From positions 1 to 22,850 of the IMG/VR virus record IMGVR_UViG_3300044997_000548: a stretch of 22,850 nucleotides of DNA; one strand, written 5' to 3'. The first letter of the stretch is position 1; every line of letters begins with the position of its first letter. Source of the stretch: a virus. The notes beneath the pieces are model-generated. The model was not told the DNA's origin. It saw only the letters and a list, made by a program, of their open reading frames with translations, and searched no databases. The position numbers were made by a program, and so were the translations under genes. Of the stretch, positions 9,795 to 13,014 are shown piece by piece.

Positions 9795-9800
9795 AGTGTG

Positions 9801-9832
9801 GAACTTAGTTCTACGTAGAACTTAGTTCTACG
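9801..9832. repeat. Near-perfect 28-bp dyad built from two 15-bp direct repeats
   Basis: The 15-bp unit GAACTTAGTTCTACG occurs twice (9801-9815 and 9818-9832), separated by TA. The centre AGTTCTACGTAGAACT (9807-9822) is a perfect 16-bp palindrome, and the whole 9801-9828 is palindromic apart from one symmetric mismatch pair. It spans the stop codon of the connector gene and the leader of the tail terminator gene. It is unlike the surrounding GC-rich coding sequence. Confidence 0.85.
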
Positions 9833-10154
9833 CGGACGAGGTTTGAGGGTTTATGAGGTCGACGACGTATTCGCCGCGGATGAGGTCTTTGCGGATCGAG
9901 GCGATAACCAGCGTGCCGTGGTCGGGGGTGGTGAATTTATCCCACCGGTAGGGAATCGCGGCGGTGATCGCGAACGAGGCGGTGGCCTCGACTTGAACGT
10001 CAACCCCGCCCTCGACCGCGGCGAAGCGATCTTTCACGGGAGAGACGGCCGCCGTGATGGCGACGGATTCGCGGAGCGTGCAGGCAACCCCATATGCCGC
10101 CAACCTCGCCGCGCGACCTTCCTCGGCGGCAGCGAGCAATTGGTCCCTGGTCAT
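9828..10154 (-). CDS. Probable head-tail connector protein
   Basis: The 108-residue product begins MTRDQLLAAAEEGRAARLAA (helix), followed by beta-type sequence (VQVEATASFAITAAIPYRWD, TLVIASIRKDLIRGEYVV). Head-tail stopper or joining proteins of the gpFII kind are about this long and occupy this slot, after the capsid and before the tail terminator. The assignment is by synteny. The ATG at 10154 is preceded by purine-rich AAGGCGAGG. It starts only 17 bases after the U-tract of an intrinsic terminator, so its expression needs read-through, antitermination or a nearby promoter that I could not identify. Confidence 0.55.
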   Translation of the reverse strand: MTRDQLLAAAEEGRAARLAAYGVACTLRESVAITAAVSPVKDRFAAVEGGVDVQVEATASFAITAAIPYRWDKFTTPDHGTLVIASIRKDLIRGEYVVDLINPQTSSA

Positions 10155-10170: not shown

Positions 10171-10214
10171 CAAAAAAAAATGCGGCCCGGTCAGGTTCCC
10201 CCAACCAGGCCGCA
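10171..10214 (-). terminator. Intrinsic terminator with nine-U tract
   Basis: On the minus-strand RNA, TGCGGCC...GGCCGCA (10214-10208 with 10187-10181) closes a stem that continues through G-U pairs to a GGAA tetraloop, about 15 pairs in all. It is followed by nine U (10180-10172). The wobble positions pair only in the minus-strand transcript, which fixes its direction. It closes the glycosyltransferase and small Cys-rich gene unit. Confidence 0.85.
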
Positions 10215-10234
10215 CGCCGATGCCAGTCAGACAA

Positions 10235-10345
10235 TCAGGGGGCGGGTGTCAAACTGTTAGCGGGGTGGTGATAATTCCCGGACTCTTCGCAAATCCAATC
10301 GTAAAACACACAGTCGCGGCAGAATGGCCTATCGTATTTTTTCAT
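10235..10345 (-). CDS. Tiny Cys-rich (zinc-binding-like) protein
   Basis: The ATG at 10345 gives 36 residues starting MKKYDRPFCRDCVFYDWICE and ending in HHPANSLTPAP. An in-frame ATG at 10369 that overlaps the glycosyltransferase stop would add eight residues. The CRDC pair, a further Cys19 and the HHPAN segment resemble small phage proteins with a CxxC...C...HPAN pattern that probably bind zinc. It follows the glycosyltransferase directly and ends just before the intrinsic terminator, so the two are probably co-transcribed. No clear ribosome binding site; translational coupling is likely. Confidence 0.6.
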   Translation of the reverse strand: MKKYDRPFCRDCVFYDWICEESGNYHHPANSLTPAP

Positions 10346-10362
10346 AGTTGCGTTTTCTGTTT

Positions 10363-12054
10363 TTACCATACGCCGGCGTTTGGGTTTCTGCGTTCGAAGG
10401 TGGCTTTTCCGCGGGCGAAGGCTTCGGGGTTTTGCTGGCGCATGTAGGATTCGTCGGATTCGGCGCCGGTGAAGGCGGGGTGGTCGTGGTAGAATTTGAT
10501 GTGGCGGCCGTGAATGACTTCGCCGGCTTCGTAGGCGCGGTAGGAAAATTCGGTGTCTGAGTAGTAGCCGTCGTATTCGGGGCTCAGGAGGGTGCCGTGC
10601 TTTTTGAGCCAGGCGCGGGTGACGCACATGATGACCATGATGCTGTCTGTTCGGAATCCGTCGTGGAGGTGGAGGACGCGGGGCTGCGCGGTGTGGCGGA
10701 CGAGGGCTTCGAAGACTTGGGTGTCCCATCCGTGGGGCGGGTAAATGTCGTCTTGGGCCGCGATGATGATCGGGCCGGATGTGGCGGCAGCGGCGGCGTT
10801 GTAGTTTGCCACGGCGGAACTGTGTCCGTCGGGGACGGGTTCGCTGAGGGCGTGGGGGAACTCTGCGATGCGGTGGCTGGCGGCTTCGGGTTCGATGCCG
10901 AAGATGTATTCGATATTCTCGGGGTGATTGGCGCGACCGAGCCAGAGTTCGCGGATCTTGATGGCTTTTTCGGGCCTGCAGGTGGGGTGCGCGACGCTGA
11001 TGCGGATGCCGTGGTGTTTGTGCCATGCGCGGCGGCGTTTGGCGGCTTCTTCTGCTTTGCCGTTTTGGATGAGGGCGCGGGTGGTGATGTCGAGTCCGCG
11101 CCATGAGTGGAGGGAGGCGTCGTGATTCCACGGGGGCTCGGCGGGGGCGGGGATGCTTTGCATAAGTGCGGCGTAGTCGCTGGCGAGGTTGGGCTCACCG
11201 CGGTCGAGGTGGATCTGTGCGAGTTCGCCAAATGGTTCGCGGCGGAAGGGGTCGAGGCGGACGCATTCGAGGAGGGGTCGGGCGGCTTCGGCGGGGTCTT
11301 TGATCCAGCGGCCGATGCTCAGATAAGCGGAGAATTTTTCCTGGTCGCCGAGGTCGTCGCGGCCGGAGGCGATGACGGCGGCGTGGAGGGCGGCGGGGAT
11401 GTCGTTTTGCAGCTCGCATTCGCGGGAGAGAAACCACCATTCGCGGCCGGTGCGCTGGTCGGCGGGGATGGCGTCGAGGATGCGGCGGTTGCGTTCCTGG
11501 GAGGTGCGTTTGAGTGTGGCGGGGGCGTGGATGACTTTGAGGCCGGGGCAATGGATTTGCTTGGTGCCGGCGGGCAGGACGATGTCTTCGTGGACTTTGT
11601 TTTCCCACCCGACGAATGCGGATGCGGAGACGAGGCGGATACGCTGGCAGGCGGAGCCATCTGCGCCGACGATGTAAGGGGCGGTGGCTGCGCCGAACTC
11701 TGGCGCGCTGCCCGCGCGGATCTCGGCGAGGGTGAGTTGACCTTCTTCGCTGAGGAGGTCGTCGATGTCGGCCCACATGAGATAGTCGCATCCGGCGGAG
11801 GCGGGGGAGCGGAATGCCAGATTGCGGGCGGCGGCGAAGTCGTCAACGTGGGGCCAGTGGTGCCCGGGGGCGTTGTGATATTCCTCGAGGTGGCAGCCGC
11901 GGATGGCGGCGATCTCGGCGGTGCGGTCGGCTTCCTGGGTGCCGATGGCGCGGACGAGGGTGATGGCGTCTACGTGGGGCGCGAACGAGTCGAGGAAGCG
12001 CGCGATGATTGCTTCTTCATTGCCGGCGATGACGCCGAGGTGGATTTTTTTCAT
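10363..12054 (-). CDS. Two-domain glycosyltransferase (GT-A/GT2-like) with helical linker
   Basis: The 563-residue protein has an N-terminal GT2-like domain (residues 1-180): a GNEE start motif at 11-14, a DxD-type site in MWADIDDL (Asp96-Asp99) and a VHED segment near 154-157. Residues about 205-345 look like TPR-type helical repeats (LLECVRLDPF, ELAQIHLDRGEPNLASDYAA). A second GT-A-like domain begins at about 352 (ISVAHPTCRPEKA), with AAQDDIYPP (Asp435-Asp436), a DTEFSYRAYEAG segment (500-511) and YHDHP (522-526). It presumably transfers sugars from nucleotide sugars in the cytoplasm; the acceptor is unknown. It sits among virion genes and is bracketed by terminators, suggesting an accessory insertion that could decorate capsid or tail, or modify host surface glycans. 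Confidence 0.8.
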   Translation of the reverse strand: MKKIHLGVIAGNEEAIIARFLDSFAPHVDAITLVRAIGTQEADRTAEIAAIRGCHLEEYHNAPGHHWPHVDDFAAARNLAFRSPASAGCDYLMWADIDDLLSEEGQLTLAEIRAGSAPEFGAATAPYIVGADGSACQRIRLVSASAFVGWENKVHEDIVLPAGTKQIHCPGLKVIHAPATLKRTSQERNRRILDAIPADQRTGREWWFLSRECELQNDIPAALHAAVIASGRDDLGDQEKFSAYLSIGRWIKDPAEAARPLLECVRLDPFRREPFGELAQIHLDRGEPNLASDYAALMQSIPAPAEPPWNHDASLHSWRGLDITTRALIQNGKAEEAAKRRRAWHKHHGIRISVAHPTCRPEKAIKIRELWLGRANHPENIEYIFGIEPEAASHRIAEFPHALSEPVPDGHSSAVANYNAAAAATSGPIIIAAQDDIYPPHGWDTQVFEALVRHTAQPRVLHLHDGFRTDSIMVIMCVTRAWLKKHGTLLSPEYDGYYSDTEFSYRAYEAGEVIHGRHIKFYHDHPAFTGAESDESYMRQQNPEAFARGKATFERRNPNAGVW

Positions 12055-12060
12055 AGTATA

Positions 12061-12107
12061 AAAACGAACATCCCGCCGACTGCCGGGAAGTTGCAGTCAG
12101 CGGGATG
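12061..12107 (-). terminator. Intrinsic terminator after the major capsid gene
   Basis: Bases 12069-12083 pair with 12093-12107 (15 pairs, loop of 9). The single non-Watson-Crick position is a U-G pair only in the minus-strand RNA. A short U-rich tract (UUCGUUUUU) follows, running to the start of the glycosyltransferase gene. It lies about 55 bases past the capsid stop and should limit transcription from the capsid into the downstream genes. Confidence 0.8.
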
Positions 12108-12162: not shown

Positions 12163-13014
12163 CTAGATCGCGAGGGCCATCGTGCCGCTTGTGACGGCGG
12201 CGGATGCACCAAACATGACTTCAATGCTGGCGTTGATCGCGCGGTTGCTTGTGGAACCCCACACGTTCCAGTAGACGGTCATGCCCAGGTCGGGGATCTG
12301 AACCGTCTCGGAGAGCGTGTATTTTTCGGAGACCTCGGCCGGGATCGCGGGCGTGGCGCTCGCGATGGCGATGGCTTCCGGTGAGCAGGCGAACCCGTCG
12401 AGGCCGGAGACCGCGCCGGTGAAGTTCGAGACGTAGTAGACGCCGTTGTCGAACCCGTAGGCGCCCGCGGCGAGCGGGAGGCTTTGGGTGGAGGTCGGCA
12501 GGAACTCGCTGTAAACCGTGCTGGTGAGGACGAGCCCCTTGCGGTTGCTCTTGCTCACGGCGGCCCACAGCGCCTTCGTGCCAGCGCCGGACGGGGTGAG
12601 CGACGGGATGCTGGTGACGGTGGCAGCGCCGAAGTTGACGGTCGTGATCGGTGTGATCGCGAGCGACCAGACCTTGTCGGCGAAGGCGTCGAGGTTGATC
12701 TGAATGATCTGCTCAAGGCGCCGGCCGTTCATGAGGTCGCTGTTGCTGAGGCCGAAGGGCTGGAAGATGTGGTCGAGGGCGACGGATGCCTTGCCAATCG
12801 TGGTGTTCGAGCCGGGCTCAAAGTTCGTGGGGTTGGTCTGCGTCGCTTCCGCCGCGGAGACAACCGGAACGATGACGGTGTCTTTCGGCCTCTTGACTTC
12901 GTCGGAGAAATCCGACGTGAAGAGACGGAGAGGTGCCAGCCGGTTCTTGAGAACCGTCTGAGTGGTGGCGCTGATCGTGTTGACCAGGAGGCCTGATTCG
13001 TAGCTGTTAGCCAT
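12163..13014 (-). CDS. Major capsid protein
   Basis: The 283-residue protein begins MANSYESGLLVNTISATTQT and has the layout of a compact HK97-fold coat protein. The N-terminal segment mentions TVIVPVVSAAEATQTNP; a helix follows (NGRRLEQIIQINLDAFADKVW), then a Gly/Ser/Thr-rich beta domain and a C-terminal strand region (GMTVYWNVWGSTSNRAINAS). It follows the ClpP-like protease/scaffold gene, the standard order, and is preceded by the best ribosome binding site in the structural block (AAAGGA, eight bases before ATG), as expected for an abundant protein. A strong terminator follows. It has no large N-terminal delta domain because the scaffold function appears to be in the protease gene. Confidence 0.8.
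   Translation of the reverse strand: MANSYESGLLVNTISATTQTVLKNRLAPLRLFTSDFSDEVKRPKDTVIVPVVSAAEATQTNPTNFEPGSNTTIGKASVALDHIFQPFGLSNSDLMNGRRLEQIIQINLDAFADKVWSLAITPITTVNFGAATVTSIPSLTPSGAGTKALWAAVSKSNRKGLVLTSTVYSEFLPTSTQSLPLAAGAYGFDNGVYYVSNFTGAVSGLDGFACSPEAIAIASATPAIPAEVSEKYTLSETVQIPDLGMTVYWNVWGSTSNRAINASIEVMFGASAAVTSGTMALAI

Follow-up and report, generated by a model that had tools for sequence, protein, structure and literature searches.

The double glycosyltransferase (GT) encoded directly behind the major capsid protein gene of an uncultured tailed phage is proposed to be a soluble protein glycosyltransferase, expressed late, that builds a short glycan on a protein of the phage's own virion, with the major capsid protein as the most likely acceptor. 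The probability of this reading is estimated at approximately 0.6. The analyzed DNA is the virus record IMGVR_UViG_3300044997_000548 (22,850 bases, hereafter the window), and the GT gene (563 aa) occupies positions 10363..12054 of its minus strand. Glycosylation of the virion was suggested in the initial annotation of the window and is now the best-supported use of the enzyme, through its kinship with SunS and GmaR, its TPR arm, and its capsid-adjacent place, which together point to a putative virion substrate.

The placement of the gene in a structural operon by the initial annotation agrees with the minus-strand gene series, which comprises the genes of the small terminase subunit, GpA-type large terminase, lambda-type portal, ClpP-type head protease, and capsid protein, followed by the GT gene, small genes, and the tape-measure gene. 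The capsid protein gene (283 aa; 12163..13014, minus strand) is located directly upstream of the GT gene. Its label is weak when the window is considered by itself (PHROG major head protein, E 0.0025). The homologous capsid protein of distant relatives matches the Pfam family Phage_capsid_4 (8e-8), and the profiles of the window and distant-group capsid proteins are aligned by hhalign with E 9e-24. Comparison with 50,697 deposited phage records gave no match to the capsid protein of the window, which suggests that this collection contains no isolate of the lineage. A literature search found no earlier description of the capsid-GT lineage; most subscription journals lie outside the reach of this search, and such a description may exist. 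As for the bacterial host, no assignment to Burkholderiaceae is made, since the sole genome match was L102, a MAG contig titled as belonging to this family and possibly a mis-binned phage contig, and 25 other genomes of the family gave no match.

The first gene after the GT unit (108 aa; 9828..10154, minus strand) has no family match and is described by position and length only. It takes the place of a gene of ~105–112 aa found in relatives after the capsid or GT genes, and it probably functions in head completion. A short palindromic repeat, TAGAACTAAGTTCTACGTAGAACTAAGTTCCA, is located between two head-region genes (9799–9830, minus strand).

According to PHROG, PDB profile, and Foldseek searches and AlphaFold modeling, the GT is an enzyme with two GT-A domains around a TPR-like region, and sugar transfer is its predicted activity. 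The two-domain organization of the 563-residue protein, proposed initially from the sequence, was thereby confirmed; a fold search of both halves had been named as the check, and both came out as GT-A. Residues 3–339 match PHROG 13126 ("beta-1,4-glycosyltransferase", E 1.5e-15), and residues 351–541 match PHROG 14945 ("glycosyltransferase", E 1.7e-6). The two families, one per half, are fused here, whereas in deposited phages the halves occur apart, half 1 in the Pseudomonas phage PaBG and half 2 in Streptomyces phages such as Comrade.

The first GT-A domain (residues about 1–180; 11515..12054, minus strand) is SunS/GmaR-like. Its predicted metal/nucleotide-sugar site is the DIDD motif (residues 96–99; 11758..11769, minus strand) within the sequence WADIDDLL (residues 94–101). 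The comparison of a profile of the first half with the PDB gave good matches with SunS (2e-10), GmaR (3e-10), and ThuS (7e-7). Foldseek analysis of the full model, which is good only over the first 350 residues, placed SunS and ThuS on top, followed by TPR proteins; a different domain arrangement kept the TM-scores low. The helical joint noticed initially (residues about 181–348; 11011..11514, minus strand) indeed resembles TPR proteins: the model contains helices in this part, TPR proteins are among its matches, and TPR_19 was found in the relative L183.

The second GT-A domain (residues 349–563; 10366..11010, minus strand) was modeled poorly from 16 similar homologues, whereas a diverse alignment of 33 sequences gave a confident model (mean pLDDT 93.8). 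Among the matches listed by Foldseek against the PDB for this model, all were glycosyltransferases, the best being the WrtF fucosyltransferase (TM about 0.70), and PF00535 was detected in 14 of the 33 homologues. Its DxD-like site is D435–D436 (10747..10752, minus strand) within QDDIYPP (residues 434–440). Both DxD-like sites had been pointed out in the initial annotation and hold up in 32 homologues, where D96, D98, D99, E156, D157, and D436 are invariant and residue 435 is D or S. Thus, the GT shows the features of GT2-type GT-A enzymes, namely the fold in both halves, a conserved DxD-type acidic motif, and a catalytic acid. No membrane segment was found in the protein.

The closest characterized systems are the peptide S-glycosyltransferases SunS and ThuS, the former encoded by the SPbeta prophage, in which a GT-A domain is likewise followed by TPR-like helices. 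In contrast to them, the window enzyme has a second GT-A domain (and, in relatives, also a methyltransferase), its gene neighbors a capsid gene, and no glycocin peptide gene was seen. The GT-A plus TPR-like architecture of the SunS family TIGR04195 is present in the window GT, but the NCBI equivalog cut-off of this family (350 bits) is not reached: P0001 gave no match, and the relatives L183 and L186 scored 20–21 bits. GmaR of Listeria has the same order of GT-A and TPR parts (sequence match E 3e-10); behind the TPR part, it carries a linker and antirepressor domains, whereas the window enzyme carries the second GT-A domain. GmaR is both the flagellin O-GlcNAc transferase and the MogR antirepressor, and the flagellin that it glycosylates is a self-assembling surface protein (PMC9638930). 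Since the nearest solved relatives of half 1 together with the TPR part (SunS, ThuS, and GmaR) act on peptides or proteins, a protein substrate is favored.

The association of the enzyme with the capsid gene was assessed in related virus contigs, which may be fragments. In close relatives with capsid proteins 54–64% identical to that of the window, the GT comes after the capsid gene. The distant-group capsid proteins are only 26–30% identical to it. In a scan keyed on the distant-group capsid profile alone, all 69 informative contigs carried the GT (two further contigs end too early to judge), nearly always 57–119 nt behind the capsid stop codon. When all loci are taken together, 133 of 140 non-redundant capsid-GT junctions are within 300 nt, and the remaining seven contain inserted ORFs; some of these counts pool loci found via the GT itself, a bias that the capsid-keyed scans escape. 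Insertions of 0.8–1.5 kb between the capsid and GT genes of L276, L221, L223, L291, and L259 carry ORFs resembling mobile endonuclease genes (with a GIY-YIG-like start in L276). In viral_contigs, some 450–500 stretches match half 1; examination covered the best 80 per scan.

One clade, with capsid proteins 51–55% identical to that of the window, has no GT at this site, nor was one found elsewhere in the 14 contigs of the clade searched whole. On the capsid tree, a quick one without bootstrap, these phages form a single cluster (SH-aLRT 99), and when the distant GT-bearing group serves as outgroup, their lack of the gene is apparently explained by a single clade-level loss. To judge from the contig sequences, the GT is a near-obligate, fixed part of the lineage and not a sporadic accessory.

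Intrinsic terminators on both sides of the GT gene were reported in the initial annotation, and both are real hairpins with T-runs and folding energies of about −32 kcal/mol each. The upstream one (12061..12107, minus strand; stem-loop 12069–12107, about −32.6 kcal/mol) has equivalents behind the capsid gene in 37 of 37 close and 91 of 96 distant GT-bearing relatives and in 21 of 21 GT-less relatives, with 0.6–2.4 expected from shuffles; it belongs to the capsid gene and not to the GT unit. The downstream one (10172..10215, minus strand; hairpin 10180–10215, 16 pairs) is particular to the window: behind the GT gene of relatives, a terminator was found in 0 of 32 and 0 of 67 cases, and what directly follows the GT gene there is a third GT gene or a small gene of head type. 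In the window, this place is taken by a Cys-rich ORF of 36 aa (10235..10345, minus strand), the tiny gene seen initially after the GT; neither a third GT nor a methyltransferase was found elsewhere in the window. The GT start codon lies a few bases past the T-run of the capsid terminator (12055–12068), with no Shine-Dalgarno sequence visible; in relatives, the same setting is combined with a GTG start. A scan of positions 12055–12107, limited to sigma-70-like promoters, found no such site.

The two hairpins gave rise to the initial view of the gene as a moron, i.e., an accessory unit of transcription enclosed by terminators and gained or lost from phage to phage. Besides the flanking terminators themselves, this view could draw on the clade in which the GT is lacking and the site is closed up, and on L102, which holds further extra genes at the site. 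Comparison of relatives, the check named for it, did not bear it out: the upstream terminator is kept, the downstream one is absent, and the GT is near-constant apart from one clade. Since relatives keep the upstream hairpin with or without the GT and none of them has the downstream one, the two window hairpins are not a pair. In addition, the presence of the GT in the capsid-keyed scan is not patchy, a single loss suffices on the capsid tree, and the third-position G+C content of the gene (0.80, compared with 0.79–0.87 in its neighbors) gives no foreign-gene signal. The moron interpretation was therefore abandoned as highly improbable. In L102 (7889–10570), a Cys-rich ORF of 176 aa comes next after the GT, then a C-5 cytosine DNA methylase-like gene and a third GT, and only then the head genes, indicating that the GT site also takes up other genes.

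Targets other than the virion were considered as well. The enzyme could modify host surface glycans (LPS, capsule, or teichoic acid), either late in infection or in lysogens, thus blocking superinfection or changing receptors. Phage GTs that alter host surface glycans exist, as in serotype conversion; the proteins nearest to half 2 in fold (WrtF fucosyltransferase, TarS, and RmlT) have polysaccharide or wall polymers as substrates, and an integrase-like gene in 12 of 20 related contigs suggests that many of these phages may be temperate. However, the GT has no membrane segment, no flippase-type partner was recognized, half 1 resembles protein glycosyltransferases, and the gene is placed in the late capsid operon rather than in a lysogenic region, all of which makes a host-glycan target unlikely. 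Glycosylation of hypermodified bases in phage DNA, which would shield it from host nucleases, is considerably less probable still. DNA-glycosylating phage GTs are known (cited in PMC12619734), and capsid-proximal genes act at packaging time, but genes of the thymidylate synthase/dCMP hydroxymethylase family are absent from 20 related contigs of 34–48 kb, which argues against such a role, and the SunS/GmaR-like half with the TPR part indicates protein substrates.

Glycosylation of the virion is favored because the place of the GT behind the capsid gene is fixed despite the low identity of the capsid proteins, because an unrelated podovirus shows a similar layout, and because mycobacteriophages provide a precedent. 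The podovirus, ctKR88 (MW202524), encodes a GT-A-TPR-GT-B protein two genes behind its capsid gene, along with an ORF annotated as gtA and a further GT. It differs in having a GT-B-type second domain and an SU10-type capsid protein unrelated to that of the window. In mycobacteriophages, the capsid and tail tube are glycosylated by phage GTs (PMC12363180, PMC11256854, PMC12619734). Che8 gp110, Corndog gp38, and the system of Myrna, likened here by description, are phage-encoded virion GTs of the kind proposed for the window; the Che8-like phage Maravista has its GT genes close to the 3′ genome end, whereas the window GT is behind the capsid gene. The window GT shares with phage virion glycosylation systems a phage-encoded GT in a structural operon. 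Several observations count against the virion as target: phages of one clade live without the GT, genes beside the capsid gene can have other targets, half 1 scores far below the SunS family cut-off (20 against 350 bits), and comparison of capsid proteins between the GT-bearing and GT-less clades shows no clear acceptor difference.

If the virion is the target, transcription of the capsid operon would pass the capsid terminator at lowered efficiency, so that the enzyme would be made in small, catalytic amounts; a low dose relative to the capsid protein is suggested by the conservation of the terminator ahead of the GT gene. The TPR part may hold the protein substrate, by analogy with what has been proposed for GmaR and flagellin and reported for OGT. 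By comparison with its nearest characterized relatives, the SunS/GmaR-like GT-A domain would put the first sugar on a side chain, and the second GT-A domain would then add a second sugar, the sugar donors presumably being supplied by the host.

Architectural variants among relatives fit the assembly of a glycan. Of the 105 complete enzymes, 57 have 500–600 residues and 48 have 680–800 residues, and a C-terminal methyltransferase is fused in 45 of the 48 long enzymes (45 of all 105). The fusion was noticed in the distant relatives L183 (PF13578, E 2.5e-21), L184, L191, L193, L195, L199, L204, L208, L213, and L216. A third GT gene follows the double GT gene in 81 of 90 cases. In such relatives, the third GT and the fused methyltransferase would extend and cap the glycan, probably in this order.

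In the accessible literature, glycosylation of phage virions has been demonstrated for mycobacteriophages only. It is proposed tentatively, at somewhat less than even odds, that glycosylation of the capsid belongs to the core, near-obligate traits of the whole uncultured lineage, in which one TPR-armed polypeptide would both start and extend the capsid glycan, many members would also methylate it, and the catalytic dose would be set by the capsid terminator. The fixed capsid-GT pair, seen in well over a hundred contigs from the environment, together with the similar layout in an unrelated phage, suggests that virion glycosylation may be common in environmental phages. The pair provides a simple genomic marker, and the GT-less clade, which has the capsid without the enzyme, offers a natural control for asking what capsid glycans do.
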